Shown in pieces: positions 8,541-60,000 of a stretch of 64,000 nucleotides of DNA. The position numbers were made by a program, and so were the translations under genes. Each line of letters starts with the position of its first letter. The first letter of the stretch is position 1. The DNA is from Fragilaria crotonensis (Eukaryota; Bacillariophyta; Fragilariophyceae; Fragilariales; Fragilariaceae), in assembly GCA_022925895.1 (NCBI GenBank), contig JAKSYS010000286.1, positions 1-64,000 of the forward strand, written 5' to 3'. The notes under the pieces are model-generated. The model was not told the origin of the DNA. It did no database searches and worked only from the letters and a program-made list of their open reading frames with translations.

Positions 8541-9725
8541 TTCTCAGTGAACTCCAACGTTGGCCTGGGATTACGCTCCAACATGTCCGAGGTCACCAAG
8601 ATCGCAAGACAGCGTACACCCGTCTCCCGCTGTTGGCGCAATTGAATGTGGATGCAGACCTCATGGCGACGACGTATCAATGCGAACATGGGATGTCGCG
8701 TCCTGAGGTTCTTCTCACAGACACGGCAGGAGTGCATCTCGTCACACCTCGAGGCAGCGTGACAAAAGATTACGACTCGGCTATACGATACCAGGCCACG
8801 AAACCCGGCCTCGCAAAACATATCCAAGAGAGGTATGGATGGTCGGACCGAACTATGCGTAACGTAAACTGGACAGCTCATGGATCGAGCTTGCGGAAAA
8901 AGATTCAACGAAAGACCCATTACACAAAACTCGTCCACGGGATCCTCCCAACGGGAAAACATATGCACCGGAAGGACCCATTCCGAAGTTTGTGCCCCCT
9001 ATGTCAAGATACTGCGGAAGATTGGTGCCATATTCTAAAATGCCCACATGAGAACCGAGGCCGATGGAGGGATCAACTCATACCAAAAGTGGAGGAGAAA
9101 TGCTCCTCACTGAGAACACGGCCCGTGCTAAAGCGACTGTTACGTGATGCATTGAACGGCTGGTTTAACCATACTACTACGGATACGTACGCCCTCAATC
9201 CCTTGATGTACCCGCCGGACGTCCACTGCTTAATTGGTCAGCAGAACGAAATAGGATGCAGCAACTGTTCTTGGGACGATTCAGTACCGAATGGAGCTAT
9301 TTACAGGATAATTTTTATGCACAACAGGCTGCGGAAGAGGGACAAACAAAGAAGAAGACAAAGAAACTACAGGCCAACGGTGGCAAGTCGCAATGATTGG
9401 GTTACTATGGGATCAATGGTGGGTAGTATGGGAAAGTCGAAATCAAGATCTCCACGGGGCTGACGAACGCTCTCGAGCACAAGCGGAGACGAGAGAGGTG
9501 CATCGAAAACTGAGAGAACTCTATGATTACAAAGCCCGTCTGAGCAGCGAGGTGCAAACATTACTGCATGAGGATATTACAGAACATTTTGATCGACCGC
9601 TGTGGGTCAACAAAAATTGGATAGCGATTCATGAGCCACTTATCAGGGCCGACCTGAAGCGGGTGATGACGAGGATAAGAGCAGGCACAAGATCTATCCG
9701 CCAGTATTTGAGACCTGGGAGATAG
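8541..9725 (+). pseudogene. LINE-A RNase H second half, zinc knuckle and C-terminus
   Basis: The frame picks up LINE-A RNase H at ILSELQRWPGITLQHVRGHQD and continues to LNVDADLMA (final catalytic Asp). A CCHC zinc-binding segment follows, LCPLCQDTAEDWCHILKC (~8990-9045), as in many LINE ORF2 C-termini. Frameshifts near 9260-9390 move to the frame 9393-9725, which ends RAGTRSIRQYLRPGR and TAG. The equivalent zinc segment in LINE-C copy 2 is LCPTCLLQEENIHHFLHC. Confidence 0.82.
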
Positions 9726-38702: not shown

Positions 38703-39340
38703 TCCAAACCTAGTTATGTAATTGTTCTTTTGTTGTCTCCACTTTTTCGTTTCGTACTTGTTGAGTACAAGTATGAAGTATGAATACTTCTGCGTTTATG
38801 TACTCAAGTACACATGTACTGAGATACGATACTTGTACGACGCTCCTACATACATTCAAGCAATACGACGTCGTACCTAGTTGTACTCAAAATTGTATTA
38901 AAATCATATACGTTCGTAGTAGTCCCCGCACAACAAAACCTTCTTCATGTCACATCAAAACCTTCTTCGTGTCACAGCAAAACCTGCTTCGTGCGAAGAA
39001 GCATCGAAGAAATCTGCTTCGCGGCTGCAAAGCAACGTGGAATTTGCCTTCTCATAGGATTCTTTTGATGTGCGGATGGCTGGCTCGCAAGGATTCAGTG
39101 CTGAACACGACCCAAAAGACGTTATTAACACCGTTTTCATAACGTACAAGACTCGCTAATGAAAACCCCAAAAATGACGAAGAATAGGGTTAAGATGAAT
39201 TTCCGCATGTCCCAGAACTCGGAACCAATTTCAATCATGGTCCATATTTGTCACATATTCCCACGAAAAAAGGCATTCCTTCATTCTTCATGGTTTTGTG
39301 CATCCCTTGACCTTGTGCCTTTAACTTTAAACTTCAAGCC
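38703..39340. promoter_or_regulatory. Upstream region of the ankyrin gene with shared CTTCTTCG repeats
   Basis: 38755-38905 is rich in GTAC words. At 38938-39001 the unit TGTCACATCAAAACCTTCTTC and its variant TGTCACAGCAAAACCTGCTTC occur in tandem, ending in the palindrome-like CTTCGTGCGAAGAAG. An inverted relative of the same unit (CGAAGAAGGTTTTGGAGTGAC) lies upstream of the ankyrin-kinase gene (56830-56850). No coding frame is supported here. Confidence 0.5.
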
Positions 39341-41248
39341 ATGCCGTTGAGTGCGAATGATAAAAAGTTGGTTTACTATGCCTTTCGTGGTAACCTTCAG
39401 AAGATTCGTGACCTGTTACTAGCGGGAGCCAATGTGAATGCTCAACATGATGGTGTAACTGCCCTCTATTTGGCGAGTCAAGAGGGCCATTTGGAAGTCG
39501 TCCGCGAGTTGCTCCAAAACGACACGGTGGATGTGAATCTCCATTGTACTGATTATGGTTCAACAGCCCTTTATATTGCAAGTCAAAAAGGCCATCTGGA
39601 AGTCGTCCGCGCCGTGCTCGAAAACAAAAAGGTAGATGTGAATCTCCAACGTACTGGTGGTTCAACATCCCTTTACATTGCATGTCAAAATGGCCATTTG
39701 GATGTTGTCCGCGAGTTGCTCCGGAAGAACGATGTGGATGTGAATCTCCGACGCGCTGATGATGGTGGTTCAACAGCCCTTTATGTTGCGAGTCAGAAAG
39801 GCCATCTGGAAGTCGTCCGCGCCGTGCTCGAAAACAAAAAGGTAGATGTGAATCTCCAACGTACTCGTAATGGTAAAACAGCCCTCTACACGGCGAGTCA
39901 AAAGGGCCATTTGGAAGTCGTCCGCGAGTTGCTCCAAAACGACAAGGTGGATGTGAATCTCCAATGTACTGATGATGGGTCAACAGCCCTTTATATTGCG
40001 AGTCAAAAAGGCCATCTGGAAGTCGTCCGCGCCATGCTCGAAAACAAAAAGGTAGATGTGAATCTCCAACGTACTCGTAATGGTGAAACAGCCCTCTACA
40101 CGGCGAGTCAAGAGGGCCATTTGGAAGTCGTCCGCAAGTTGCTCCAAAACGACACGGTGGATGTGAATCTCCAATGTACTGATGATGGTTCAACAGCCCT
40201 TTATATTGCGAGTCAGAAAGGCCATCTGGAAGTCGTCCGCGCCGTGCTCGAAAACAAAAAGGTAGATGTGAATCTCCAACGTACTGGTGGTTCAACATCC
40301 CTTTACATTGCATGTCAAAATGGCCATTTGGATGTTGTCCGCGAGTTGCTCCGGAAGAACGATGTGGATGTGAATCTCCGACGCACTGATGATGGTGGTT
40401 CAACAGCCCTTTATGTTGCGAGTCAGAAAGGCCATCTGGAAGTCGTCCGCGCCGTGCTCGAAAACAAAAAGGTAGATGTGAATCTCCAACATACTGGTGG
40501 TTCAACATCCCTTTACATTGCATGTCAAAATGGCCATTTGGATGTTGTCCGCGAGTTGCTCCGGAAGAACGATGTGGATGTGAATCTCCGACGCACTGAT
40601 GATGGTGGTTCAACAGCCCTTTATGTTGCGAGTCAGAAAGGCCATCTGGAAGTCGTCCGCGCCATGCTCGAAAACAAAAAGGTAGATGTGAATCTCCAAC
40701 GTACTCGTAATGGTAAAACAGCCCTCTACACGGCGAGTCAAAATGGCCAAGTGGAAGTCGTCCGCGAGTTGCTCCAAAATAGCAAGGTGGATGTGAATCT
40801 CCAATGCACAAATGGTACAACAGCTCTTTACGTGGCGAGTTACAATGGTCATGTGGAAGTTGTCCGCGAGTTGCTCGGGAATGACAAGGTGGATGTGAAT
40901 CTCCAACTTTCTGATGATGGTACAACCGCACTTGATGTTGCTCGCACGAAAAAAATTGATGATGTTGTATGTCTCTTGATGGAGCACACGGAGAGTATGA
41001 AGCGTCGTGAGAAGGAATCGCTGAATCGCAATGTGGAGGCAGTATGCACGCAGCCTTCGAACGCGAATTCCAGTCTACAAGAACGCGAAGGCGTTGCGCT
41101 CAACAAGAGGGAATTGTGGGTGGAAACCGGTTGGTCGCATCTGTGCTGCTGTTTTACATGCGTTTGCTGTTCGATGAAAAACAAACGTGTGGGGACAAAT
41201 ATTGAGAAGGAGAACGGTGACACAACGCTCGATAAGGCTCGCGATTAG
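39341..41248 (+). CDS. Ankyrin-repeat protein, 16 repeats with Cys-rich tail
   Basis: Intact 635-codon frame, ATG at 39341. From residue ~10 to ~550 it is made of 16 ankyrin repeats of 34-36 residues, consensus GSTALYxASQKGHLEVVRxxL plus E/QNxKVDVNLQxT. Ankyrin repeats bind other proteins. Several repeats are almost identical at DNA level and recur as two-repeat blocks (for example ~40255-40460 and ~40465-40670), a sign of recent unequal exchange or gene conversion. The C-terminal tail is charged, then HLCCCFTCVCCSMKNKR (residues ~590-610), a cysteine cluster next to basic residues that could be S-acylated. There is no enzyme domain. It is convergent with the NOS gene. Confidence 0.88.
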   Translation: MPLSANDKKLVYYAFRGNLQKIRDLLLAGANVNAQHDGVTALYLASQEGHLEVVRELLQNDTVDVNLHCTDYGSTALYIASQKGHLEVVRAVLENKKVDVNLQRTGGSTSLYIACQNGHLDVVRELLRKNDVDVNLRRADDGGSTALYVASQKGHLEVVRAVLENKKVDVNLQRTRNGKTALYTASQKGHLEVVRELLQNDKVDVNLQCTDDGSTALYIASQKGHLEVVRAMLENKKVDVNLQRTRNGETALYTASQEGHLEVVRKLLQNDTVDVNLQCTDDGSTALYIASQKGHLEVVRAVLENKKVDVNLQRTGGSTSLYIACQNGHLDVVRELLRKNDVDVNLRRTDDGGSTALYVASQKGHLEVVRAVLENKKVDVNLQHTGGSTSLYIACQNGHLDVVRELLRKNDVDVNLRRTDDGGSTALYVASQKGHLEVVRAMLENKKVDVNLQRTRNGKTALYTASQNGQVEVVRELLQNSKVDVNLQCTNGTTALYVASYNGHVEVVRELLGNDKVDVNLQLSDDGTTALDVARTKKIDDVVCLLMEHTESMKRREKESLNRNVEAVCTQPSNANSSLQEREGVALNKRELWVETGWSHLCCCFTCVCCSMKNKRVGTNIEKENGDTTLDKARD

Positions 41249-42474: not shown

Positions 42475-42839
42475 TCATCCTTCCGAGAAGGACAAGAGCC
42501 ACTTCTTGGCTGCAAAGATCTGTTTCGACCTGGGATCCAAGGTCGTTTGTTGGAAACCCGAAAAGACTCCCCATAGGTCATACTGCCAACGATTGTTGGC
42601 CCGCATTTTGCGAAGATGTTGTACTGCTCCAACCCGACTCATCTTGCCGTACTGCCGCAAGATACGGACACATGCCTCATAGCAAGCATCGGCTACTTTG
42701 GCATTCCCGCAAATATAATAGTGGGAGTCGTCTTGCAACAATACTCGACAAATCTCTTCGCCATTCTTCAACAGCAGGTCCTGAACGTAGGTTCGTTCCT
42801 CGCCCGGTTGACGTGACAGTGCAAGGTGATGCTCAAGTA
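42475..42839 (-). pseudogene. NOS: Nitric oxide synthase, detached C-terminal NADPH-binding end
   Basis: Reading on the minus strand from the target duplication: LEHHLALSRQPGEERTYVQD, then DDSHYYICGNAKVADACYEA, then LRKMRANNRWQYDLWGVF and a ~25-residue tail to TGA at 42475-42477. The ALSRQPG...TYVQD, YxCG and ...YxxDxxG blocks are the end of the NADPH-binding domain of NOS and P450-reductase-type diflavin enzymes. It is in the exact frame that continues the 51404-55855 gene: 4390 nt up to the target duplication plus 350 nt here makes 1580 codons. A LINE now separates the two parts, so this piece has no promoter or start. Confidence 0.92.
42825..42839. repeat. Target site duplication of LINE-C copy 2, left copy
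   Basis: GGTGATGCTCAAGTA, identical to 51466-51480; both lie in NOS coding sequence. Confidence 0.95.
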
Positions 42840-43272
42840 AAAAAAATGTAAAACGAATTATATAGGTTTACCTCTAGTAGGAACTTTTGCCAAGGACGCA
42901 CACGGTACCCAACCTAGGCATCTCTCTATCTTTGAGAGGGCGAAGGATTTTGGATGTTGGTATGGTAGTCGGGGGGTCGTCCAGGGAAGAAGGCTGTCAT
43001 GCGTTGCTGGGTAGTGTTTGAGGTACGTGTTCTGTTTGGAATGTTTTCCGGTGGAAGGGTTGCCAGTCTTGTGGAGACGTCGCGTGTCGGCGGGATAGCG
43101 ATCATGTACTGGGTTACTTGTCTTTGTGTTTTTCCATCTTTCAAGTGGGCTGCTCGCGCTGTTTTAACTCGTCGAAGCCATCGTCGTCGAACGGAGGGTC
43201 TGCTGTGTAGAAGTTTGGTTAACGTGATGTTGCGGCAATAGTGTTGATCGGAGGTCTGAATGAGGGTTGGAT

Positions 43273-45025
43273 TCAGTGGTAGTGGCGAAGCTCTGCGGAT
43301 TCCATCGAGTAGATCTCTTGGTCAGTCTCATCTCGATGTTGATGTAAGACTTCATTTCGTCCAAGCCAGATTTCTCGTACCATAAGGGTAATCGCTTTGA
43401 GGGCCGTGTGTGTGCGACTTCGTCCTGCTGATAGATTCAGTTTCCCGGGGGTGGGAGTGTCCATGGCTGCAAGCAGGAGCCACTTCTTGGATAAGTATCC
43501 GAGAAGTAGTTGGTGCCATCCGATGAGGTTCTGTTCTTCGATTGCCGTTTGTAGGATGTCGTCGAGGCGGCTGGAGAGTTTGTCATTGTGAAAGTGGACG
43601 CGTTGCCCTGGGTGTGTTAAATATTGTTCAACGCAAGATGCAAAGGCTGGTCGACTGGGATGATCGTCTTTCAGGATGGTCCGAAGCATGGCTGAGATGC
43701 TTTTGCCTCGAGCTGGGTTTTGGGAACAGTGCAGAAAGTGATGGATGTTTTCCTCCTGAAGTAAGCATGTGGGACATAGTTTCAATTTCTCATCCTTTAC
43801 GTCTGATCGTTGGTACTTTTTGTCTCCCAGTGGCAGTTGATTGTGGATGAATTTGACATGCGACGGTTGATGTTTTAGCGGAATTGCCTTAAAGTTCTTT
43901 CCAAATGCTGTCATGTCGATCATGTCCCAGACGTGATCTGGCCATTTGTGACGAGATTGTGTGTATTCACGAAGATATCCCCCATTTACATGGTACCGTA
44001 TGTGTTCGTCTAAATTGCCGAAAAACCGTGTGTTGAGGATCGATATGCTCATCTGCATTGTCGGGATATGATTCGTCTCTCGCCGTGGTTTCGCTTTTTT
44101 GTTTTGGTGACATTTTGTGGCCAGTTCGTCCACGTCAACGTTCAAGCGGGCGTCGGGTGTCAGTTTGTCGTATGATATTTTTCCATCCTGGTGACTTTTG
44201 ATCCACTTGGTGAGCATGGGGCGACGGAGTTCTCGGAAAAGTTCTGTTATGGTTGTCAGGTAGTCACTATTGTCCGGCTGTTTTGTTGGTGAGTAGTCTT
44301 TCCGGGTGACGAACGTTACTCTGTTAATGGCCACCTCGCTATCCGCCAACCATCGAAACTTGCACCTATGTCGCAATCCCCAGTGTCTCGCCAGTACGGT
44401 TACCAATAGGAGTGGCGCCGTAAAGCCCCCTAGTTCGCTCCGAGTGGAGCTCCCAATTTCGATCGGTCCGTCGACTGGCCCATACCCTTGAAAGAGAACG
44501 TGGTGGTTTCTCGTTGTCAGCTTCCAGCCAAAAGTGCCTGCTTCTTCCCCTGAGACTTCCATCGGAGGCGATGGTTAGTCGTTGCCTTGATCGAAAAGCT
44601 CTCCATACCTCAACATCGTTTGCTATTTGTTTGTATTCGAATAGGAGTCGACGATGCCAGAGTGGTAGGGAGTTAATATGACTTTGTATTGATGAGTGGT
44701 GGGTGCTTGTATCGTCTGGTGGAGGATCTTCTTGTCTGATTTTTCCCAGGGGATCTTTCCATTTATTTGAATATCGCAGAAAGTTTTCTGAGATGTATCG
44801 TGTCCAGAGTCGAATTTGTGGAGCTGTTGGTGGTTCCTGTCGTGGCCATGTTTTGATGCGGATCACTTGTGTCGGTCGCCGTTCTCCATTGAGGTGGTAG
44901 CAACATGCGGAGATTCCGTCTGGTTGCGACATGTCAGAGAGCGTGATAATCTGAAGGTACAAGCGGACCAGGTTGATATCGTGTTTTTGTTGGGTTGAGT
45001 ACCGAGTCAGTGCATCCCTGTTCAT
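43273..45025 (-). pseudogene. LINE-C copy 2 RNase H, zinc knuckle and C-terminus
   Basis: LTIASDGSLRGRS (first Asp) is in the frame 44366-45025. After a frameshift near 44540 come FGWKLTTRNHHV, STRSELGGFTAPL (Glu), FRWLADSEVAINRV (Asp), TKWIKSHQDGKIS (His) and LNVDVDELATK (Asp) in 43273-44562. The CCHC segment is LCPTCLLQEENIHHFLHC (~43740-43795). The C-terminal part reads TLMVREIWLGRNEVLHQHRD and ends at a stop at 43273. 42840-43272 is 3' sequence with only short, shifted frames. Confidence 0.85.
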
Positions 45026-47932
45026 AAGACATTTATCTTTAGGCCCCCCCTGAGAAGTACCGTGAATGTGTCAGTGAGAGAAATTGTAAGGTTGTGTTGG
45101 AATATAAACTGGCGAATGGATGTGATCCATGTTGGGGTCAGGTAGGATATTTGGATCCCTGGATACTCAAGGATGGGCTCCGACATGCCGGACTCGATTT
45201 GGGAGTATTTGACGTTGAGCAACATGAGTTTTCCCGCCTCTGTGTTTGAGTAGATCTCGTTTCTCATGTATTTCAGAGTTGAGATTCCTAACTCAGTTCG
45301 AAGGTCCAGCAGATCGAGTCCTCCGAGTTCCGCGGGGCCGTAACGTATTGCAGTTGGAAGTTTGGACGAGTAGCCGAGTTTTTGCAGCATCGCCGTTATC
45401 ACCTGTGTCTGTACTGGGCCAAGTTCTTCTTCGTCGATGGCGAGGCATGGCAGAACGTAGCGCATCGCGGGGGAGTACATTGTTTTATGGAAGGTTTGGA
45501 TGTCGCGTGGCGTTAACTTTGGGGGAACGTAGTCTGATGGCGAATCCGTCGGCTTTTGTTTTGAGAACTCGGAGTTGATCAGAGAAGTTTCCATCTGGAG
45601 CAAGGTATACTCCGAGTATTCTGCTGGCGTCACTAGTTTCCATCCTCCGGATGGTGGAAGGTTCTGTCGTTTGTCCTTGAGTTGCCATCATCAGAGTGGG
45701 GTCGTCGTGGTGAATCATTCGTAGCTGTGGTCTTCCTTTCTTCCAATCCCAGTACATCGTGTACCAGGAACATTTTGAGAGATTGAGTGCGCCGCCGGAG
45801 TAGAACAGTATCTTCTCCCAGGTCTGTGCGATATGGTTCAATTTGGCTATCATTGTCTCGAGTAATCATTCCTGGGTCAGTAAACCCAAAGGTGTCATCG
45901 ACAAACGCGTCGATGAGCCGATCGTGTCGTTCTGGTGAGTTCGGGGACTGGAAGCTCATACGTTCTGGTATAATTCTATCGAGGGTGTTCATCAGGACAA
46001 CAACGAGTGAGCCACACTGATGGAGATGCGCCGCTTCCTTGTCCTGTGCCAAATAGAGGTTCAAAGGTTGTACCGTGGTAGTTGCTTGCGGAGACGCCGT
46101 GCACAGTTTTGATTGTGTACTTCATGAGTTTCAGACAGTCGGCATGTGTTTGTACTGCTGTTTCTGGCATACCGCACCTGCGGGCGCGAGCATTCAAGGG
46201 CAACGATGATCCTATCGTAGCACGCGCTTGCGTCGTTATCGAATCTGGCTAGGTTGTGTTTGAGAACTCGACAGAGATCGGTGGTTAGTTGCGTCAACAT
46301 GATCGGGTCGGTTGCCTTCCGTTGTGGTATGGATCCGTGTTGCCCGTCATTGAGGAGTTTCATAGATACCGCTCGTTTTACGAGGCGCGATCCCCAAATT
46401 AGCTTTAGGAAGAAGTTGAAATCTGCCTCGAAGAGGTGGATGATGCGTAGGCGTGTGATTTTTGGTTGCCCTGGGTCCTTCTCGATTAGGATGTTGACTG
46501 CGTTGCACCATCGTCTTAGTGTCAGACCACCGTTGACGGTGATGTGCATGAACTGAGTAAAGCACTTGAGCAGGATCGGGTCGCGGATTAGGGCTTTGTA
46601 GTGTCCGAGGTGTCGCCCAGACGGTGAGGTAGATGTCGTCTCTTTCCACTTCTTAAAACCGTAGCTTACGTCATCTTCATTTATGTTTATCGATATCGCC
46701 TTATTTTCCTTCACAACATCCGGTAGTGCGAAGGAGGTCAAAAATTCGCGTAGTATGTCGTCTTGTCCGTGCCAGTGTGGTGGTATTGTTCCATACAGAA
46801 GTGCCGCCGAGTCTTTCGAGAGGCTGTTGAAGGATAACCCGCTGTGAATGATTCCATGTCCGCATGGAGATGCTGCAGCTGCCCGAAAAGAATTCCGATT
46901 ATATCGAAGAAGGTTACTTTCTATGGTATCTTTGTCGAGTATTGTGTCCCATATGATATCCTCTGGATCCGTTGACGAAAGGAAGTGCTGAAAGTTTTGT
47001 GGATATTCTGTGCTGTGTTTGTGTCTTGGAAGCATGAGTTTATCAAGGCCGCTGTTCAGATTTGGTTTGACGACCTGTCGGATGTTGCTGTACATGGTTC
47101 TGCACTGTTCTGACCGGATTGTGTTTCTGACTATTCCCGCCTTGTGTTTCGATTGCTTCATGGTTTCGGAGTTGGTGTCTGTCTCGTATTTGGCGAGGAG
47201 GTCAATGTAGCTGCTAAATCGAATGTCGATCGAGTTCTTCTGGCATTTCCTTAAGTGTGTTGCGGCACTGTTGAGGTTCGTTGTTACTTGGTCCAGAGTG
47301 AGTGCGACTGATCGGAGAGGCAGTACGAACTTCGTGTTGGATTGTTGAGCCAATTGTTCGATACGGTCGAAGGTGGTGGCGTAGTCCTCGTCGTGTTTCT
47401 CTTCTCTATATCTCAGTCTCCAGTATCGGTATAAAAGACCGGCGTCGCGGAGTATCGGAGACCATGCGTATGGTTTCCTGGGCTTTGTTATGATGCGTTC
47501 CGCGTTTGCCATTGCTCGCCCTTGGTCTTGATCCCATTGTTCAAGTTTCTTTTTAAGCTTGGATCTGGATAATGTGGTGTGCGTACTGAAGAGTTGCTGC
47601 ATTCGTTCCACCATCTTATGTTCCTTGTAATACTGTTTCATTGCCGCATGATATGCTTCCACCAGTTCTGGGTTTCCGGACTTAAGTGATCGCGATCGTG
47701 GAGATTCGATATTCTGCTTTGTCAGGGTTGGCCCAGTATCGTGTTGGGATCTATGTCTACAAACAGGCCCCTGTGATCGGATTGTGGACCGTCCAGATAT
47801 GACAAGGAACCGGAGCGCGTCATCGCCTGTAGGAATTGAGAGCATCCGAACATATGGTCTATCCTCCGTGCCTCTGAGCCGATATAGGTTGAAGGGGCTG
47901 GATGTTTCTCGTGAAGGTCGTGGAGGTCGCAA
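45022..47932 (-). pseudogene. LINE-C copy 2 reverse transcriptase
   Basis: The large frame 46061-47932 has the linker TLSRSKLKKKLEQWDQDQGR and KPYAWSPILRDAGLLYRYWR, then SPSGRHLGHYKALIRDPIL, RLRIIHLFEADFNFFLKLIW and motif A NDASACYDRII (~46210-46240). Motif B is split (FGTGQGSGASP in the frame 45976-46203) and motif C is DAFVDDTFGFTDPG (~45885, frame 45633-46064). GGALNLSKCSWYTMYWDW (~45750) and ELGGLDLLDLRTELGI (~45290) follow. All catalytic blocks are present, over at least four frames. Confidence 0.85.
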
Positions 47933-48803
47933 TTTCGTTGCAGGCGTTGAAGATCAAGATCGCCTGTTATCTGGGCGTTTGAGTCGAGCATAAGGATGAT
48001 GGAATGTCCTGATTGTTGGAGATGTGTGATCGCCGAGATAAGGTCCGTGATCATGATCTTTCGTGGTCGGGAGCCGTGAGGTTTTGAGATCGCCTGAGAT
48101 GTTCGTACTCTCGATTGAAAGCGCTCCCCACTGGTGAGGTGCTAATCGAGCCTGTGCAAACTCTGTATGCTGTTATGATGGAGAGGAATGTATTTGCTTT
48201 TCCCCGCAATGTGTGGCCACACCATCTGCCGAGACCGGTAGGGTCTAGTATGTGTTCTCCGTGCGACATGGGCACCAGAGTTCTGGTGGACATTGTGATT
48301 GATCCACCCGATTGGAATGTTTCCTTCTCGGGCACCGCATCGATAGCCTCTGTGGGAAAGCCGAATGAGACTTTTGCCGTTCCAAAGTGTTTGCCTGCTC
48401 TGGAGGAAAACAGCGTTCTGAGATGATGATGTTGCCATGCAGTGTTTGTTTCAGCCATACCAATTATATCGGCACCGATAGCCTGTGTGCTTGTCATATA
48501 GTAGTCGTAGTCCTCTCCTGTGAAGCTGTATGTAAGTCCCTTAACATTTTGAAAGAAGATCCGTATATCTTTGTCGTCTTTTTCGAGGTGTGAATCGCCG
48601 TAGGAGCTGTGTACGTCGATGGTGTCAGTTTTCCGATTGTGGTTGCGACCCGGTCTTAGATTGGGTATGGTGTCAGTATTAGTTGTAGTACGATTGATAT
48701 GAACATTTGTTTGATTGCTGAGATTTTGTGTTATAGTTACTTCTTGTGTTTCCGTCGTCGGCCTCATGTCCGCGAAGGGTGTCTCCGTCATGTTATCGGT
48801 CAT
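47722..48803 (-). pseudogene. LINE-C copy 2 ORF2 start and endonuclease
   Basis: ORF2 begins at ATG 48803-48801, sharing one base with the ORF1 TAA (TAATG). Endonuclease blocks: DIRIFFQNVKGLTYSFTGED (~48535), IGADIIGMAETNTAWQHHHL (~48450), DPTGLGRWCGHTLRGKANTF, then after a frameshift near 48055 ILMLDSNAQITGDLDL, EARRIDHMFGCSQFL and DGPQSDHRGLFVDIDP (SDH). The residues of an APE-like nuclease can be followed. Confidence 0.85.
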
Positions 48804-51375
48804 TATGTCTCCCCTTCGTCAGGTGTGCTATTTTCTTTGTATTGTGCACTTGGATCCTGATCGGGTTTGGGATTGTGGTTCTTTGTGATAGAGTCGAGGT
48901 TTCGGTTTTGTCGCCTCCTTTTCCCTTTCTGTTTTCTTGGCGAGGTGCCATGTTTTGTTGTGTCCAAAGATTGTACCGACATGTTGTCGGATTGATCGCT
49001 TGATGCAGTGGAATCGTCTTCGTCAGCATCTGTTGAGCCGGAGGAGCCTGCCAGAGATGTCATCATCTTAGTTAAATGAGCAAACGTTTGTCGAAATTCG
49101 GCAGCCTGTGCAGATGCTTCCTGTCTCATGCCCAGAATGTTTTCATTTGTTTCTTTCCGGAGTTCCAGAACATTCTGTGATGTATCTTTACAGAAGGTCA
49201 TCGTAGTGATCACTCGTTCTTCTAGATCGTCAAAACGTGTGTTCACGGCGAGGAAAGCCGCCTGATGTGCTCGGATGTCAATGTTCTGTTGTCGAATAAC
49301 GCTTTCCAATTCGTGGAAACGTTGTTGAGTCGCCAGCGACTTAGTCATGAGTGAGTTTGTGGTGCTTGTGTCCGTCATGGATTGTTGAGTGGTGCTTTCT
49401 AACCGTTGCTGTGTATCCTTCTTTGTTTGGAATCGAGGGGTCAAATCTGGAAACTCTCTTTGTGCAGTGTCCGAATATCGTTTGGTCTGGGATTCCATGC
49501 TTGGTGGTCGATATGTTGGTGTCGGTGATGTGTTGTTTGGAGGTTGCCGGATGGATGGAGGTGCGTTTTCCCACGTGGTAGTTGTGCTGAGGCCCTTGAT
49601 TAGATTGAGATTGTGGTTTGCTGCCGCTGTCGGTACGTAAATCTCCGCTGGGTGGGCTTGAGCGATTCTTTCCGCAAAGTGGTTTTCTCGTAGGCTGAAC
49701 GGAGAGATGCTTTCTTTGTAGATTGCGAGAGCTTGTCTTGCGCGATTCAGGTTTTCTACCGGCACCAGGAGGTGAGCCCTTTGATTGTCCCCACCGTTCT
49801 CGGCATCGCACCTTAGACTGTTGCCCTCCTCGTCGAGCAGTGTTTTGGCCCAGAGTCTTGCTGTCCTTAGGATGTTGCCTTCCGTGCGATATTCCGTTCG
49901 TACTCTATCAATATTTTGTACCACTGGTGATAGGGAGAGGCATCTGAGACTGGTCACAAAATCCGAATGGGTTTGAAAAATTGCATCCACCTCGTCAGTC
50001 GACATTTTTGAGATTAGTAGTCTTCCAAGGAACACTGAGGTTTCGGTGCCATTTAGATATGTTGAGAGGATCTCAGTTAGGGCGCCCACATGGTTTTCGC
50101 CGCATTTAACAATAAGATGAGGAACTGTTCGGCCCGTTGGCGTTTTCCTAAAGAGAAAGATGTCAAAGAAGGGAGTCGCTGGGGGTAATTTTCGTCGGAG
50201 TTCTTTGAGATAGAAGAATCGTTGGGTGAAGGTGGGGTGTTTGAAGAAGATGTATCCTGCCGTGGTGATCTCCCCGCTATCGCTGGAGGCGTTGGAGATG
50301 CTGAGTTCAACGTGGTGGTGATCGAGTACGTTTGGTATCCGGATTTTTAACCACTTGCTTGGCCCTGTCGGAAGACAAAGTCTGAAGCTGAAGACAAACG
50401 TTCTGGCGGCGCCAATGGGAAGAGTCCGTTTTCCTAGGTAGTCGGAGAGGTTGTCGGGTGTCAAGTCGATGAATGGGATAGCTGGTGCTGCTCCTGATTC
50501 TGTTTTCCAGGGATAAATGACTGAGTCTTTTGCCGTTCCCAATATATAGTGGATTAGGTCAGTTGCTTCGTAGTTCCATTGAGTGATGTCGTCTGTGAGT
50601 TCTTCGTACTTTGCTGGTTTCCATTTGACTGTGATCCTGATCGTGCCGTCGTTGATCTGTACGAAGGAGTTGTCAGGTTCCGTGGTGGTTTGTTGGGTCA
50701 CGACTGGGGAGTTTCCATGCTGAATTGAGTTTATCTGTGTAGTGGTTTTCGTCGGGAGGATGGTTTCGGTCGTTCTGGGGAGGCAGGAAGCGGTGTCTGT
50801 GTTGCGTCTGTGTTTTGTCGTGGTCTGTTTTTAGCTCCAACTACTTGCCATTCGATTGCTGGGAGTTTGCCGTCCGTGCTTGCGTCGAAATCCATAAAGT
50901 CTGGCTCTTCATAGATCAGTCTCGCATTTCTTGGATCGGTTGTGTCAGGGGTGAGAGCTGATGGTAGATTGTTCAGGAGGTATGGGCGGGCGATGTCGAT
51001 TGCCCACCTCTCGAGTTTCTCTGGCATGTCAAGCGCTCTGTTCAGGTGGTAGGAGTAGACGTTCCAGATGAAGGTAAGCGCGTCCACCTCTATCTCTTTC
51101 ATGCGTTCCCACTGTGTTTCAAACTGGAAGCAGTGATCATATGCATGGTAGCCGAAGGTGATGTAGCGTTCCCATGTCGAAGGGTTTCCTACCTTTTGGT
51201 ATGCAAAGTCATTTTCCTTGCGGAGAGTCATAGTGGTGCCGTTTATGAACGCTTCGGGGAATTGTCTCGGGGTTTCGATCCAGTCTTCGGTGTTAAACGC
51301 GTACTTAGGGTCAGTGATGTCAATGCCATTAGGATGGCTACCAAGGGGCGGTGGAGGTCCCGTTCCAATGGACAT
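48803..51375 (-). pseudogene. LINE-C copy 2 ORF1
   Basis: Start ATG at 51375 (MSIGTGPPPPLGS). The first frame ends at 50731; the second, open without an ATG, runs on to 48803. In copy 1 the two are one frame, so a single indel near 50740-50800 splits ORF1 here. The second part has DGTIRITVKWKPAKYEEL, a folded-looking middle (TTAGYIFFKHPTFTQRFFYL), a Gln/Glu coiled-coil region (RFHELESVIRQQNIDI) and a Ser/Asp then Lys/Arg-rich end (RKQKGKRRRQNRN) that could bind nucleic acid. No known ORF1 fold is recognised. Confidence 0.75.
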
Positions 51376-51403
51376 GGTGGTACGTGACAACTTCTTACAG
51401 TCG

Positions 51404-54400
51404 CTACGAGAAAACGGTTGACGGACGGTTCGTTATTATCGAATTTTTTAGTAAGAAATTGTGTAGGTGATGCTCAAGTACACCGTTCGTCTCCCAGTTG
51501 TCAACTTCTGCACCATAGATTCGATCCTCCAACGTTCGACAGCCACCGAAAAGGTAACACACTCCCATATTTGCAGGATGTCCAGTCGTCGTCTCATTCG
51601 ATATCGATAATTCTCGTTCCCGTAGGAATCCAATCAACGGTGCCAACCCTGTTCCTGGACCAATCATAATTACTGACGACTCGACAGTTTTGGGTCCACG
51701 GAACGTGGATTGTCGAATGGATATCTTGGCCTTGTCCACTGTCGGTCTCAGGCGTGCCAAATAATTGGAGCAGACACCATCAATACTCACGCCTTCAGAT
51801 GTCTTGGTGTGCACCACTCCGACACTGATCGATACAAGCGATGGGTCGTCACACGGAGATGATGATATGGAGTAGTAGCGTTCGCGTAATTTCGGAAGCA
51901 GAACCAACACATCGGCAAGCCGGATCAGCGGACCCTGTCCCTTTACTACACCGCCAACACACAACAGTGCCTTGAAGCTCTCCAGGAAATGAATGATGGA
52001 AGGATAGCGAGCCAAGAACATCGCCATGCCTTCGTCCCTCGTGGACGCATTCGAGGACGTTACGGTATCGCAAAGCTTGGCGAGTGTTTCCCTTTGCACA
52101 GAGAGGTGATGAGAGAGATCTCCCTCAGGTACCTTTTTCAAGGATGCCATGATCAAGGAGGCATAGGAATCAAGTGTAGACTCGTTGATGGAAAAGTCCA
52201 CCGACGTTTGCAAGGCGGATGCCAAGGTTGCAGGGGTTTGAAAAGATAGCACAGCCGGAAACGTTGCTCCGCCTTCCGTTGTTTCAATAATCATTGGCTG
52301 CTGCAGTTGCCGGTAGATCGCCTCAATCCGCTTTCCAGAATCCTCGGCTGCGCCCACGAGCTCCTCTTCAAAGCAGGTCACGAAGCGAATGACATTATCA
52401 AAGGAATTCATTGGACTGACTGCCAAATGGTCGCCTGCCAGATACGTGACGCCATCTGGAAGTTTGAATGTCACCTTCCTCGTCGATCGGAAAGAAATAT
52501 CGCCACCGAACAGCAACTCTTCGTTTGCAACTACGTCGCATCCGTCTCCGTCTAACGACGCTATCCTCTCATTTGATTTCAGCCAAGAAATTCGGTGAAC
52601 GGGTGGCGTCATTGCGGCTGGATTTCTGCTGGCAAGGACTTTGGCCACGTGTTCGGGCAAAATGAGCCGTTCCACGAGGTGGATCCACGCTGCGATCGGG
52701 GCCGTGGAGCCGTGAGCATCGTCGACCTTCTTGAGTGGCATCAGAGAAGTCCCCCCAGCTTTCTCCAGCAGTGCTTGCAGCCGTATTCCAGCCGCGCAGA
52801 AGTCAGGGTAGGCGGACGACCCTACGGCACAAACTGCAAACTTGGAGCCACCCAGAGCATGCGCCTTGATCGGTGTCGTCGCAAATACGTCCGCGTTGGA
52901 TGGAAACTCTCCTCGGTTGAATGTTGAACAAATGGACAACACATGAGTGAAATTTTCTTCCTTTACAATCGCCAATCCAGAGACATCGTTCAAGGACAGC
53001 ACGGTAGGCTTCAAAAGTCGCAACGTCCGGGATAACTTATGTGCAGCAGCCTCGGCGGTTCCAGTTTGGGAGCCGAACACAATGAGTACACGCGGAATTT
53101 CGAAATCCTCACCGGCATCTGAAGTGCAACTATACGTCTCCGATGATTCCAAGTTCAATGGGCTTGACTTGCCGCGAGCCAAGTTGCATACCATCCACGG
53201 TTCACTGCTGTACTCATACTGCGGAGCAACGAAGAAATCTCGCATCTCGTGGTGCCAAGTGGCATTAGTGGGGCCTACAAGACCCCCGATCCAGCTCCAT
53301 TGTGCCGGGCATTCTCGGCCTTGCTCGCGCTCGCGTTTTGTATGGACCAGGAAGGACTTCCCAACCGCGCATGGGTCCACCATTGAAAAGCCTGCCTTGG
53401 CAAATGAATGAAGCACGGCGACTTGCACCTCATGTTGTACTCGCATCTCGAGCATGCGCTCCTGTGGATCCAGCTGCATTGCCTTGGCCCACCGTTCCTC
53501 CACATGATAGCGCTCCATAAGGTTCCTGACAATCTCGATGGACACAAACCAACCGTTGAAAGGGCAGCAGTTGTACATGACTCCACCGAGATTCATGGCA
53601 AAATTTGAAATGGCTGGCACAGCTGTCCAACGCAAGTTGAGCTCCTTGATTGCTGCACACTTCGGGTGCTCAATTTTGACTTCCTGAACCCATTGCTCCG
53701 GCAACTGGTAAACGTATGGCCTGTGGGTTCCTGGGATCTTCAAGACTATCGGCAACACATCAAAAGCAGACTTTGTTTCTGGTGGCGTCCAAAGACCTTG
53801 CTTGACAAGATATTCCGTGAACTCCAAGTTGGCAGGGTCGCCGAGGATGCCATCTCGATTGGCTTCCGCATGAGACTCTCCATCGGGCAGCTTGTACCCT
53901 GCGTATCGGACAAACTGAGAAGACCAGAATCTCAAGCCCCACGTCTCGCGGGGCGCTCTGGGACGAAATACAGTCATTACAGATTGAATGTTCGTGCCAC
54001 ACGTTGCAACGCGAAGGTGCTCCTCCACCTCCTTAAAAATTGCCTCAGGGCGCGAGATGTGGCGACAGTCTCGAACTACCAGAGTATTCCAGGCGATTCG
54101 ACCGATGCACTTTGCAGAGTTCCTCCACGCAAGCCGAGCTCCGATTTCCAGCTCTTCAGACGTGTGAACATACGTTCCGGTGGCAGCAATCTCCATGTTG
54201 ACTTCCCAAAGGCGGTTTTCTAGCCGGCTATCGTTCCATTGCAGCTCAGAGGCCACGGCTTTAAAGAACTCCTCTGCTTCCAGGCAAAGCTTTTCTTCGC
54301 ACTGCATAGGATGCGACACCATCGCCATTATCTCCGTGTAAAGATCAGCGAAGGCACAGCCTAACTCGTCGGCGCTACAATCGAAGTCTTCGCCTAGGCA

Positions 54401-55855
54401 GAGCTGTTCTTCCTGTTCGAATAAGGGCTGCAAGGTCTGAATGAGCAGTCCACCGATGATCGGAAAACTCGCTGTTGGAATCTTCATCCGGCGCTGCATT
54501 TCTCCTAAATGCGTCATTACGTCTCGAAAGGACGACGTCCCAAGACCGATCTCGTTGATGGATGCGACGAGTAGATCGAGCGCCATAATCAAATGAAGGG
54601 CCATTGAATCCATGTCGGTGTCCACAAAGAAGTCCATCAATTCAGGGCGGTTGGTGAGAAGCTCTCTGTAGAAAGACTCGCAGAGCATGGCCTTGCTTGC
54701 AGAGGAGGAACTTATGCGAGTCCAGAAGCGTGGGACGCAGACGGTAAAGAGAGGTTCGTTGAGTTTCTTTCGAAATTCAACGCTTGCTTGAATGGCTGCT
54801 TTCGCAATATGAGCGCTGACAAACATCGAATACGCGCATTCTGGTTTCAGTTTCAGGAGATCCTCTTCGTCAACATCGTTTGAGTACGGTGAATGAGTTT
54901 GCATTGCCCATAGGAAAGCCTCACAGAAGTGGACCCATTGGGAAGGCTGGATTCCGCAGCGAGCAAACGTCCTGAGGTATTCCTCAGCGGTACCATGGAT
55001 CAGTCCAAGTCGACTCATCATTGGGCTGTTGCTCTGCGTATCATGATACTGGAGGTCGTCGTTGATGGGGCGATACGCCTCGCGCTGAACGATTTGCGAG
55101 TGCGGGCACAATGAGCGGACGGAAGCATCCAGCAATCCCATGAGAAGCTTCTGACCATGTGAGACGCGGGTGCCTAGCAGCACAGTCAATGGGTCGGTGC
55201 TAAACTCCAACAGATCGGTTGCTTTTATTAACAGATCATCACTTGCGTTTACTTCGTCGCTTACTCCTTCGAGTGCATCAAGAGCGCATAGAAGACGCCA
55301 TCTGTTGAAAAGCGCTTCACTGAACATGGTGGGGAAAGCCAATACCTTGTTCCATCCTTCCATGATTACCACAGCATCCGCTTTGCTGAGTTGGCTGGAG
55401 GAACCGTACTGCCGTTCGAGAGTCTTGAGGCAGCGATCAGCTTCCTCTTTTAGTTTTTTTTCGGCTGCTTGATGGTCGCCCATACTGCTGGCGAGCACTG
55501 ATGGCTCATGTGTATTACCGTGATTCGTGACATGACAAGGATGAGAAATTTTGGGCAAGAATTGCCGGCTTGCCGCCGTTCGTTCACTTTCATCCTCGGT
55601 TAGTGAGGTTTGCTGACTATTATCAGAATCAAGGCTATCATCATCAAGAGAGTCATTCCTTAGAAGCGCTGATTTACGCGCCGAATCTCTTGTTGGAACG
55701 TCTTGGGATGTGTGTGTTTTTCTTGGAGTACTTGGCAACTTTGAAGGGAGTATTTCTGAGCTTGAGTTTGAAACGTGCTGTAAAGACGACTTCGGATTGT
55801 AACCGTGTCCAGCCTCGGATGGCCCTCCTGATTCGGCTGACTGACAGGAACCCAT
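51404..55855 (-). CDS. NOS: Nitric oxide synthase (globin-like / oxygenase / reductase), truncated by a LINE
   Basis: NOS makes NO and citrulline from arginine, O2 and NADPH. ATG at 55855; no intron. Residues 1-6 MGSCQS fit N-myristoylation (Gly2, Ser6) with Cys4 free for palmitoylation. Residues ~155-360 and ~380-520 resemble two globin folds. The oxygenase (~540-890) has the haem Cys583 in WRNSAKCIGRIAW, GLRFWSSQFVRYAGY, FNGWFVSIEI (arginine-binding Glu774) and WHHEMRDFF. A linker of only ~30 residues, without an obvious calmodulin helix, leads to the FMN domain (RVLIVFGSQTGTAEAA, ~921), then FAD/NADPH regions (RERYYSISSS, IMIGPGTGLAPLIGFLRERE). Codon 1464 enters the LINE target duplication; the last ~20 codons (to PSTVFS) are LINE sequence, so the NADPH end is lost from this frame. 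Confidence 0.95.
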   Translation of the reverse strand: MGSCQSAESGGPSEAGHGYNPKSSLQHVSNSSSEILPSKLPSTPRKTHTSQDVPTRDSARKSALLRNDSLDDDSLDSDNSQQTSLTEDESERTAASRQFLPKISHPCHVTNHGNTHEPSVLASSMGDHQAAEKKLKEEADRCLKTLERQYGSSSQLSKADAVVIMEGWNKVLAFPTMFSEALFNRWRLLCALDALEGVSDEVNASDDLLIKATDLLEFSTDPLTVLLGTRVSHGQKLLMGLLDASVRSLCPHSQIVQREAYRPINDDLQYHDTQSNSPMMSRLGLIHGTAEEYLRTFARCGIQPSQWVHFCEAFLWAMQTHSPYSNDVDEEDLLKLKPECAYSMFVSAHIAKAAIQASVEFRKKLNEPLFTVCVPRFWTRISSSSASKAMLCESFYRELLTNRPELMDFFVDTDMDSMALHLIMALDLLVASINEIGLGTSSFRDVMTHLGEMQRRMKIPTASFPIIGGLLIQTLQPLFEQEEQLCLGEDFDCSADELGCAFADLYTEIMAMVSHPMQCEEKLCLEAEEFFKAVASELQWNDSRLENRLWEVNMEIAATGTYVHTSEELEIGARLAWRNSAKCIGRIAWNTLVVRDCRHISRPEAIFKEVEEHLRVATCGTNIQSVMTVFRPRAPRETWGLRFWSSQFVRYAGYKLPDGESHAEANRDGILGDPANLEFTEYLVKQGLWTPPETKSAFDVLPIVLKIPGTHRPYVYQLPEQWVQEVKIEHPKCAAIKELNLRWTAVPAISNFAMNLGGVMYNCCPFNGWFVSIEIVRNLMERYHVEERWAKAMQLDPQERMLEMRVQHEVQVAVLHSFAKAGFSMVDPCAVGKSFLVHTKREREQGRECPAQWSWIGGLVGPTNATWHHEMRDFFVAPQYEYSSEPWMVCNLARGKSSPLNLESSETYSCTSDAGEDFEIPRVLIVFGSQTGTAEAAAHKLSRTLRLLKPTVLSLNDVSGLAIVKEENFTHVLSICSTFNRGEFPSNADVFATTPIKAHALGGSKFAVCAVGSSAYPDFCAAGIRLQALLEKAGGTSLMPLKKVDDAHGSTAPIAAWIHLVERLILPEHVAKVLASRNPAAMTPPVHRISWLKSNERIASLDGDGCDVVANEELLFGGDISFRSTRKVTFKLPDGVTYLAGDHLAVSPMNSFDNVIRFVTCFEEELVGAAEDSGKRIEAIYRQLQQPMIIETTEGGATFPAVLSFQTPATLASALQTSVDFSINESTLDSYASLIMASLKKVPEGDLSHHLSVQRETLAKLCDTVTSSNASTRDEGMAMFLARYPSIIHFLESFKALLCVGGVVKGQGPLIRLADVLVLLPKLRERYYSISSSPCDDPSLVSISVGVVHTKTSEGVSIDGVCSNYLARLRPTVDKAKISIRQSTFRGPKTVESSVIMIGPGTGLAPLIGFLRERELSISNETTTGHPANMGVCYLFGGCRTLEDRIYGAEVDNWETNGVLEHHLHNFLLKNSIITNRPSTVFS
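51466..51480. repeat. Target site duplication of LINE-C copy 2, right copy
   Basis: GGTGATGCTCAAGTA, identical to 42825-42839. Confidence 0.95.
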
Positions 55856-57092
55856 GAATAAACAAGCAAAGAACGAATCTGCTCTCAGGATGAATCTCGT
55901 TAAATGTGATGATAATCAGGCTTGTTGCTTTGTGAGACCTCATCGAAAAGGACGAAGAATCTGGTCGTGGGTTTGTATCACCCCGAATAACAACATAGAA
56001 CCCGTGTAGTTGCATTGTCTGATCGCGTCAATTTCAGTACTCTGCTGGTCCGCGGGGGATGGAGTATGTACCCGCTTCACCTCGGTGCAATCGGCATAAA
56101 ACGTTCTGACAGCTAACTCCGTGACCATCTTTCAGTACGACTTCTGCGACAAAGAACACACGTCCCCTTCCCAAGTGATCAACCAACGAATCTTTTCTTG
56201 TCACGTTTTGGAAGGACATTCTGACAAGCAGGGGTTTCCAATTCGTATATGCATATGTGTCCTGGGTCCTGGGTGTTCTTCCTTGGTTTGTTAGGGCCTT
56301 GTGTGATCGCGCAAGTCATCCAAACGTCCCACCGTGCACGTGTCCCTTCTTGTTTAAGGGTGAACAAAAATCGTGACAAAAACAAAAACGTCTTCTTCTT
56401 GCTGTTCTTGAAAAATACTCCAGTACTAGGTACGTACGTCCCTTACGGTGACAAGAATGCTGACATAAAACATAAACACATTATTGGGGCTGCGACAAAA
56501 ACATAAACTTAAGTCTTGTTCAGCGAACAAGAATGGTTTGATCAATTCGATTGCTGTGCTCGTCTGACGCCGATCGGTACTACCTGGTAGTACCTGGGAC
56601 ATGCGGCATTCCTTCTTGACCTTAGTCGGGAGTCAATTCGGGAGTTATTAGATACATAGAACGGCTACTACACCGTTATTTCATAACGTCTTGAAGGTAA
56701 TCTTGCCGTACACAGAATCCCATCGAGCTCGCCAGTCACACCCCAACAACGTTTTGAGAGACAAAAATCTTCAACACGCTTGCAGCGAAGAGGACGATTT
56801 GCAAACCTTCTTCGGACGAAGACGACATGCGAAGAAGGTTTTGGAGTGACACACGCAAAAATATTCTAGGTTGGTTCAGTGTGCAACATGTACCAGACCA
56901 GACTTTTATGTGAACACCTTCTTCGATGCCTTAAGTAGAAAACGATATCCAACGAAGAAGGTTTCTTCGCACGAAGAAGATTTGGAAGCAGGCTTCTTCG
57001 GGCGAAGAAGGTCCTTTCAACATTCTTCGTTCATAAGAAGGTTTCGGACACGCGCAAGCCAAGCTCACGAGCGCGAGTCTGACATTTTCGAT
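55856..57092. promoter_or_regulatory. Divergent upstream region between NOS and the ankyrin-kinase gene
   Basis: About 1.2 kb with no supported gene. It should contain both promoters. The right part (56790-57030) holds many CGAAGAAG / CTTCTTCG words, several as inverted pairs: AACCTTCTTCG at ~56804 with CGAAGAAGGTT at ~56830, TTCTTCGCACGAAGAA at ~56963, and CTTCTTCGGGCGAAGAAG at ~56993. GTAC-rich words occur at 56427-56445 and 56575-56600. The open frame from TTG 56871 to 57092 is read through these repeats and is probably 5' UTR. Confidence 0.5.
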
Positions 57093-60000
57093 ATGCTCAA
57101 AAACATTTTGCCGTTATCCTTCGTTGGTTTTAAAAACAGTCAACGGCAAAAGACGGTTATTCTTTCCGTCTTGAGAAGAATTTCCGCATGTCCCTGGGCA
57201 AATGTGAATGGCAAAGATGAATATGGTTACACAGCTCTTATCCGTGCAAGCATGTTTAGCCATGTGGAAGTGGTTCGTTTTTTATTGGATCACGATGGAG
57301 TCGATGTGAATACCAAAGATGACTTTGGCGTAGCTGCTCTCATCGCTGGGAGTAGAAAGGGCCATTTGGAAGTGGTTCGTGCGTTACTGAAGCACGATGG
57401 AGTGGATGTGAATATCAAGAATGACCATGGTGCCACAGCTCTCATCATAGCAATCGAGAAGGGCCACGTGGAAGTGGTTCGTGCTTTATTGAATCACGTA
57501 CGGGTGGATGTGAATACGAAGAATAATAATGGCGATGCAGCTCTCCATTTGGCAAGCTTAAGTGGCCGTGTGGAATTGGTTCATGCGTTAATGAATCACC
57601 GTCGAGTGGAGGTGAATGTCAAGAATAACCATGGAGCCACAGCTCTCACCTTGGCAAGCGAAATGGGCCATGTGGAAGTGGTTCGTGCCTTATTGAATCA
57701 CGTGCGGGTGGATGTGAATATCAAGAATTCTAACCATGGCGACACAGCTCTCATCTTGGCCAGCTGGAAGGGTCATTTGGAAGTGGCTCGTGCTTTATTG
57801 AAGCATCATGGAGTGGATGTGAATATTCAGAATAACAATGGCAACACCGCTCTCACCTTGGCGAGCTACGATGGCCATGTGGAAGTGGTTCGTGCATTAT
57901 TGGAGCACGATGGAGTGGATGTGAATATCAAGAATAACCATGGCGCCACAGCTCTTGATTGCGCTCGCAGGCAGAAAAAAGCAGATGTCGCACTTCTCTT
58001 GGAGTTACACATAAAGCGTGACCGTCGACAAAAGACTGGCTGGACATGGATGGCTCTCGTTTGCGCTAGTGTTTGGGGTTCTTTGAGTGCTGTTTCAAGC
58101 TTCAGGATTGAACAATTCCGAAAGAAGCTCGACCATGTAATGAATACCATCTCTGCTGAACCTGTGGAACTCTCCTTGGCATACATTGAGCGATGCATCA
58201 AGAAGGACCACAAACTTGGATCGGGAGCCTTTGGCGACGTGTTCTTGGCGGAAGATAGTCGTCTGCCTAAGAAATTTGCAGTGAAAATGATTAGTCCTAC
58301 TAAATGTGATGATGCCACCATCAAGGAAATTCGCAAAACCTTTCGGACGGAACTTTCGGTACGTTCTTTATTGAGTGTTGCCTTTACTCACTGTGAGCAT
58401 TGATCCCTTGTCAAGACCAATGACGTCTTCTTACGGATCATTTTGTACAATATATCCAGACGCTTAAGAAATGCCGGCATCCCAACATTATTGTCTTGTA
58501 TGGCTACAGTTTAAATGCCAACCGTGCACAGCAGTGCTTGGTGTATGAATACGCCGCAAATGGCTCCCTCGTTGGCTTCTTTGCTGATGTCGGCAACAGA
58601 GCGCGCCTGTCGTCAGACACTCGATTGTCCATCATGTTCCAGTTGGTGCGAGCGGTACACTTCTTGCACACTGGCGGTTGCAAAAAGGTGACAGGCGATG
58701 GTTGGAAAGTATTTCATCGCGATATCAAGAGTGCCAACATTTGTGTGGCGGACGATCTCACCCCCCGGCTGATTGATTGTGGGCAGGCCGAATATGTACC
58801 TGACGAGAGCTCGAGCGATACTCCGGGATCGTTCTCAGTCTTTGTACGGAACAAAACTGCCGGGCCTGTATTTGGAACCGCCGGGTACATATGCCCAGAG
58901 TTTGCCAGGATGCAGCTAGAAGGGATTTCTTGTCCCTATATTCCTGCCTTTGACGTGTTTTCTATTGGCGTTGTCATGGTTGAGATAATATTGGGATGCT
59001 TGATTAATAGGAATGGCACTCAATTCGACAGTGCTTTTCGTCGATACGTTAACGCTGAGCGTGATCAGCTTGTTGTCGATGGATGGGAAAAGCTCAAAGG
59101 TGATGCCGATCCCGTCGTCAAGTGGAATCCAGAAGCACTTGAACTCGTTTGCAAGACTGCTATTTGGTGCATGGCTCCTTTCCCTGAGGATAGGTTAAGT
59201 ACGGATGACCTCCTAGGCGAGCTTAACCGCGCCAACCAGTTACACTTCGGTATACGGAATTCCGAGCCGCCGAAGGGAGCTGCTAGTCATGGCAACCCCT
59301 GTGTAGTATGCAACAGAAACGGTGCAAGTATGAAATGTAGTGAGGGTCACGCACTGTGCTCAAGCTGTATTGAGGAATCTCTTTTGAGTGCCCCCCTTCC
59401 TGGCATAGGCGGATGCCAACTCACGTGCCTGATCGACATGTGCTCCAGCCATCCTCTGCAAGACAAGGATCTTTATCGACACATAAATGTTGGGATATTC
59501 ATCAAGTACATTATGGGACGAGAGTTGTACGGTTCTGCATCGCCATTGAGTAACATGAATGAATTGCTGCAGAACACCAACCATGTTGTCGACCAAATGC
59601 ATGCGGGACAACAGGACACGAGGCAGGATGTCGAAGAAGTCATTGCCGGGCAACAGGGCATCAGGAAGGGTGTCGACAAAGTCCACGCAGGACAGCAGGG
59701 CATCAAAAAGGGTGTCGACGACGTGAAGGCAGGACAACATGGCATCAAAGAGGGTGTCGACGAGGTCAATGCAGGGCAGAAGGGCATCAAAAAGGTTGTG
59801 GACGACGTCCATGCAGGGCAGAAGAAGTTGGCAACAGGACTGAACTGGGCATTGGGTGCGTTGTCGTTGCTCACTGCGAACGAATTCAAGGAGTGTCCGA
59901 ATCTTGTTGTGATGACTCCAAGCTCGATCAAGGAGAAAAACTGGAGTAATCCCATCAACTGGGTCAAGTGGGTTGGGAAGCAACGGTTCAAGGTTGTGTT

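Follow-up and report, generated by a model that had tools for sequence, protein, structure and literature searches.

An apparently young LINE insertion in the NADPH domain of the single nitric oxide synthase gene of a Fragilaria crotonensis assembly

The window analyzed here is a stretch of 64,000 nucleotides from the diatom Fragilaria crotonensis (positions 1 to 64,000 of contig JAKSYS010000286.1, assembly GCA_022925895.1), and on its minus strand lies a gene for nitric oxide synthase (NOS) that is interrupted by a long interspersed nuclear element (LINE). We consider it very probable that a young non-long-terminal-repeat (non-LTR) retrotransposon of the apurinic/apyrimidinic endonuclease (APE) type has inserted in the NADPH domain of the only NOS gene of the assembly, leaving a truncated allele from which no NADPH-driven nitric oxide (NO) synthesis would be expected. 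An earlier note on this DNA had described a LINE that splits NOS in frame, and this description is backed by the sequence, by sister copies of the LINE and by the single-copy status of both parts of the NOS gene.

The split NOS gene

The minus-strand open reading frame (ORF) at 55855-51404 has 1483 codons and begins with 1463 unbroken NOS codons (51467-55855), which by the ORF itself, Pfam and alignment to PDB chains encode an N-terminal extension, a globin-like region, the oxygenase, the FMN and FAD domains and the beginning of the NADPH domain. It then runs for 20 codons into the LINE, as the earlier note had it, before ending at a premature stop; in this last portion (51404-51466) the bases 51466-51465 still belong to the target-site duplication and the first codon is Leu, as in the native frame. 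The severed C-terminus, comprising the remainder of the NADPH domain and the tail, lies on the same strand at 42475-42823 and consists of the last base of codon 1464 followed by 115 codons and the stop at 42822-42475. Codon 1464 is Leu in both the native and the interrupted frame, so that 115 native residues are lost. When the flanks are joined computationally by removal of 8641 bp, one frame of 1579 residues is obtained, with no internal stop and with its stop codon at 42477-42475, which upholds the earlier claims that the C-terminus continues in the exact frame from the second copy of the duplication and that removal of the insert yields an ORF of 1580 codons.

Both pieces are recognizable as NOS. 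The long piece matches the Pfam families NO_synthase (PF02898, 1.8e-108), Flavodoxin_1 (1.9e-21) and FAD_binding_1 (5.9e-14), together with NAD_binding_1 at 5.3e-4, slightly below its curated cut-off, and the heme-Cys, FMN and NADPH motifs that were checked are all within it. The C-terminal piece of 115 residues matches full-length NOS (6e-15) and nNOS (2e-11) among the PDB chains, with its first residue at residue 1311 of the 1429-residue nNOS chain 8t1j and the lost residues spanning nNOS 1311-1413 of that chain. On the 1468-residue NOS chain 9q05, the long piece reaches residue 1352 and the short piece picks up at 1365. Because the alignments to the same NOS chains adjoin, the two pieces are neighbors within one protein, and of its fused FMN/FAD/NADPH domains the flavodoxin and FAD domains are present while that for NADPH is interrupted in the assembled allele and complete only in the joined frame. 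In the assembly that was searched (881 contigs, 62.11 Mb), there is one NOS oxygenase gene, at this locus, and the C-terminal 440 bp of NOS are likewise single-copy, with matches to the reductase domain elsewhere on six contigs (C165, C722, C97, C541, C134, and C826). An origin of the two parts from different paralogues, a possibility that the earlier note had itself raised, thus finds no support in this assembly and is rejected, as both pieces are single-copy in it.

The globin-like region corresponds to residues 284-480 (54416-55006), where the phmmer alignment to the globin-NOS chain starts at residue 284 and spans the globin part of that chain; Pfam gave no globin match within residues 1-522. 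Phe CD1 is kept as Phe410 and the position of the proximal His F8 reads Gln454 (54494-54496), so that heme binding by this region may depart from the usual mode. The predicted protein starts with MGSCQS (55855-55838), a motif that resembles a signal for N-myristoylation and palmitoylation, reminiscent of mammalian eNOS.

The boundaries of the insertion are defined by a perfect target-site duplication of 16 bp, TACTTGAGCATCACCT on the minus strand, whose first copy is at 51480-51465 and whose second is at 42839-42824. The earlier note had given a perfect duplication of 15 bp and an element of 8626 bp; the perfection of the repeat and the total of 8641 bp removed both stand, whereas the two lengths are corrected by comparison with the sister copies. 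The corresponding 15-mer, GGTGATGCTCAAGTA, has only two occurrences in the 62.1-Mb assembly, at 42825-42839 and 51466-51480. The base previously counted as the first of the LINE is T in the NOS copy, G in the copy on contig C119 and A in that on contig C21, and the alignments of the NOS copy to these two begin at position 2, for which reasons we assign it to the duplication and set the length of the element at 8625 bp.

The inserted LINE and its family

The full-length element (42840-51464) is in the same orientation as NOS and has near-identical full-length copies on C119 and C21. It has an ORF1 region (48803-51390) and an ORF2 region (43273-48803), the latter with an endonuclease-like part, a putative reverse transcriptase and an RNase-H-like region recognized by eye, and both are broken in the NOS copy. 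In the C119 copy, read from stop to stop, ORF1 has 877 codons and ORF2 has 1179. ORF2 of this copy is 31% identical over 414 residues to a reverse transcriptase-like ORF elsewhere in the window (152-2215) and 22% identical over 260 residues to an endonuclease-like one (9561-10787).

The assembly holds at least 49 scored matches to the LINE. Besides C119 and C21, near-identical partial copies lie on C407 (two pieces), C29, C197, C427 (two pieces), and C647, and these nine stretches have 0-9 mismatches to the NOS copy, on which ground an old, decayed insertion is rejected; the other matches are a 91% fragment on C72, short fragments of 94-98% and older relatives mostly of 64-75% identity. The NOS copy differs from C119 by 1 mismatch and 21 gap openings over 8643 aligned columns, from C21 by 4 mismatches and 30 gap openings over 8643 columns and from C407 by 0 mismatches and 18 gap openings over 6832 columns. 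When seven copies are aligned, gaps occur in 112 columns, a single copy being the odd one in 86 and more than one in 26, and substitutions occur in 18. In natural divergence substitutions outnumber indels, and because the gap columns here far exceed the substitution columns, the frame breaks of the LINE look like long-read errors that were left uncorrected in repeated sequence; true decay is rejected, given this excess, seen also in the gap openings and mismatches above, and the single odd copy in most gap columns (86 of 112).

The LINE ends at NOS coincide with the ends of independent copies. Some of these copies are truncated at the 5' end and reach the 3' end, starting at position 3739 on C29, 6352 on C647 and 8192 on C72, and shared end repeats are found at C29 and C647 (17 bp) and at C119, C153, and C55 (15-16 bp), so that 6 of the 15 tabulated places, the NOS copy included, have an end repeat of at least 15 bp. 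Truncation at the 5' end with variable duplications is a hallmark of target-primed reverse transcription. The LINE family is, judged from its sequences, young and recently active, and the low substitution divergence, the perfect duplication and the otherwise unbroken NOS frame point to a very recent insertion.

The 3' end of the family is a small oddity. On the sense strand, a T-run (5-7 T after ACA or GCA) closes 10 of 10 distinct copies with an intact 3' end, namely the NOS copy and loci L042, L043, L045, L046, L049, L051, L024, L048, and L053, and the conserved terminus of the NOS copy (42840-42889) has seven final T and no A tail. The family has this T-run instead of an A-rich or simple-repeat tail, which is common in LINEs and not required in all. 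Conservation is much higher in the final ~50 bases than elsewhere, and these bases are kept in relatives whose identity over the last 500 bases is 71-74%. When the terminal 120 bases of eight copies were folded as RNA, the extreme end was unpaired in most, with no firm common structure there, and a search by title among the best-ranked open-licence literature found nothing on poly-T LINE tails. The end repeats of several copies start with T, as though a U-tail had base-paired with the end of the primer. At six other LINE copies, the longest empty-site frames within 217-334 bp of flank were of 90-139 codons, and a scan for tandem repeats at the NOS/LINE locus gave nothing useful. The near-identical C407 copy is split at 1613-1615 by ~12 kb (C407:6805 and C407:18938; L044 and L050), with ends CATCTA / TAGATG (plus one base) and a 3-bp CTG overlap, as if by a nested DNA transposon.

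Several results weigh against this account of the insertion. The ORFs of the LINE have no reverse transcriptase match in Pfam, and in the PDB a sequence search with them returned only one ribosomal protein (E 0.73) and a profile search returned none. The homologues in the window fall below the curated Pfam cut-offs (RVT_1 at 8.2e-6 on 152-2215 and Exo_endo_phos at 9.3e-5 on 9561-10787), and a PDB search with the reverse transcriptase homologue gave no informative match. The identity of the element as a LINE is based on homologues and anatomy because its own ORFs have no such match. No duplication of at least 14 bp is present at 9 of the 15 places, these being C21, which is full-length, C72, C197, C427, and five with cut or rearranged ends. 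The divergence among copies may also be understated, since polishing can homogenize repeat copies, and a second NOS could be missing because the published assembly that this one resembles is only 81% complete.

Consequence for the enzyme and alternative readings

We now put forward a mechanism in which the LINE would have been copied into the NADPH-binding domain of NOS by target-primed reverse transcription, as suggested by the 5' truncation and duplications of its family, with duplication of 16 bp of the target. The allele would then encode a protein of 1483 residues with the globin-like, oxygenase, FMN, and FAD parts, and the missing C-terminal 115 residues would be those that complete the NADPH site and provide the FAD shield, so that no NO would be made from NADPH. 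Among the lost residues, the Cys of YYICGNAK and the Asp and Trp of YDLWGVF align with positions 1349, 1393, and 1395 of 8t1j, where the nNOS equivalents are Cys1349, Asp1393, and Phe1395. We take the numbering of 8t1j to be that of rat nNOS, in which the residues at 1349, 1393, and 1395 are involved in the transfer of hydride and the shielding of FAD. The GPGTGLA motif (residue 1399) is retained in the truncated protein. Because the 115 lost residues include the equivalents of these three positions, the truncated NOS should take no electrons from NADPH, and this allele should be unable to support NO synthesis driven by NADPH. The loss of reductase activity that the earlier note predicted is thus soundly inferred from the missing residues.

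Whether this would deprive the strain of NOS depends on zygosity. The published assembly of F. crotonensis SAG 28.96 is described as built from Nanopore R9.4.1 reads with Canu and Pilon polishing, with diploid-redundant contigs dropped by Redundans and organelle genomes removed, and as comprising 879 nuclear contigs and 61.85 Mb, with 47.4% GC and 81% completeness by BUSCO (PMC9476933). It is likely the assembly analyzed here, which has 48% GC in the loci examined and in which contig 881 carries rbcL, so that two organelle contigs could account for the count of 881. As redundant diploid contigs were removed in the published pipeline, an intact NOS allele may have been discarded. In the cases reported for Phaeodactylum, transposable element (TE) insertions were in one haplotype and heterozygous in all that were tested (PMC2806351). 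On both grounds the NOS insertion is probably heterozygous, with the intact allele absent from the haplotype-reduced assembly. Homozygosity is distinctly less likely, at a chance that we would still take seriously; given an assembly with no other NOS gene, it would make the sequenced strain a natural NOS-null diatom.

We think it unlikely that the truncated NOS keeps some function, either served in trans by a reductase, or with nitrate or superoxide as its product, or by interference with intact subunits in dimers. In favor of this reading, the globin-like region, the oxygenase and the FMN and FAD domains are all whole, there are reductase-domain matches at other loci in the assembly, and some diatoms are reported to encode the oxygenase and the reductase in separate genes (PMC4648414). 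NOS being a dimeric enzyme, a truncated subunit could also disturb an intact partner. Against it, the final codons are of foreign origin, and the interrupted NADPH domain would be likely to misfold.

Two further readings are very improbable, and about equally so. The first has the LINE spliced out as a giant intron, from a GT at 51481-51480 to an AG at 42833-42832 within the second copy of the duplication, to give an enzyme that lacks only Val-Leu-Glu. This pairing stays in frame (1576 residues) and the T-run precedes the acceptor; however, 8 of the 36 GT-AG pairings tried near the junctions stay in frame, so that such a pair carries little weight, the acceptor is GAG, and the element is 8.6 kb in length while diatom introns are short. 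The second has NOS as an already dying pseudogene when it was hit, as its TE-rich neighborhood might suggest, but its 1579 codons across both sides of the insertion are free of stops and frameshifts, and the heme-Cys, FMN, and NADPH motifs checked are all in the long piece. That unrelated contigs were joined via the repeat is hardly credible and is rejected on the duplication and frame continuity, since a chimera, for all that the element is repeated and has apparent uncorrected indels inside, would not give a perfect 16-bp duplication with in-frame resumption of the same NOS domain, and the NOS pieces were found nowhere else in the assembly.

Genomic surroundings, known systems and meaning

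Upstream of NOS, a repeat of ~600 bp (56590-57198) is found in at least 15 other places at 86-96% identity and overlaps the start of an ankyrin-repeat ORF. On the other side, an ORF of 588 residues (36596-38362) resembles by eye a Crypton-type tyrosine recombinase (HSIRKYAATHA), with no Pfam match at 0.1, and a plus-strand ORF of 635 residues (39327-41248), ankyrin-repeat-like by eye, has opposite it a minus-strand mirror ORF of 534 residues from GTG or 398 from ATG, which is probably due to the repeats. Elsewhere in the assembly, there are 19 silicon-transporter matches, 18 of them above the curated cut-off, including three in the frame at C97:29749-33762 (1456 aa) and two in that at C771:21664-24330 (1008 aa), which are apparently tandem-fused.

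The best PDB match of the Fragilaria enzyme, chain 9q05, is colinear with it over the globin-like, oxygenase, and reductase parts. This chain is most likely the globin-NOS of Synechococcus PCC 7335 (SyNOS; PMC6104048) because its Phe 380 and His 422 match residues named in that paper. The Phe CD1 of SyNOS is matched by Phe410, whereas its proximal His F8 (His422) is replaced by Gln454, and the allele here is truncated. The NOS of Pseudo-nitzschia multistriata (PmNOS; PMC4648414) is likewise a diatom enzyme with fused oxygenase and reductase, likened to ours by its description and not by sequence; it is described as closer to cyanobacterial sequences and is reported to be complete and expressed, whereas the C-terminus here is severed by a LINE. 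In the same report, some diatom NOS of cyanobacterial type are said to lack a globin domain, so that others carry one.

As to the element, LINE/Ambal of Pleurosigma (PMC12803021) is likewise a diatom non-LTR element, compared by label only. Blackbeard and other LTR retrotransposons of Phaeodactylum (PMC2806351) are likewise recent retroelement insertions in a diatom; those are LTR elements, and the insertions reported as cloned from other accessions lie outside genes, whereas the present element is a LINE that interrupts a coding exon. LINE insertions in coding exons are an established type of event, and what is specific here is the target, a single-copy diatom globin-type NOS, the youth of the insertion as judged from its sequence, and the T-run at the 3' end. 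In the open-licence literature, no paper describing the insertion was found among the best-ranked matches and none on Fragilaria NOS, judged by title.

The source and role of NO in algae are described as debated, and NOS genes as patchy among diatoms (PMC4648414). A call of NOS presence or absence from this assembly could mislead, because the truncated gene may be called and because redundant diploid contigs were removed. In F. crotonensis, mobilome transcripts are reported to rise at high pH (PMC9732472), and the locus would provide a concrete LINE insertion within a gene of such a species. With its single-copy NOS cleanly and recently disrupted and the sequence of the empty site defined, the locus offers a natural experiment on NO and nitrogen physiology. 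If the insertion is homozygous, any NO made by the strain must come via NOS-independent routes, and the contrast with empty-site strains would directly test the role of globin-NOS in diatoms.

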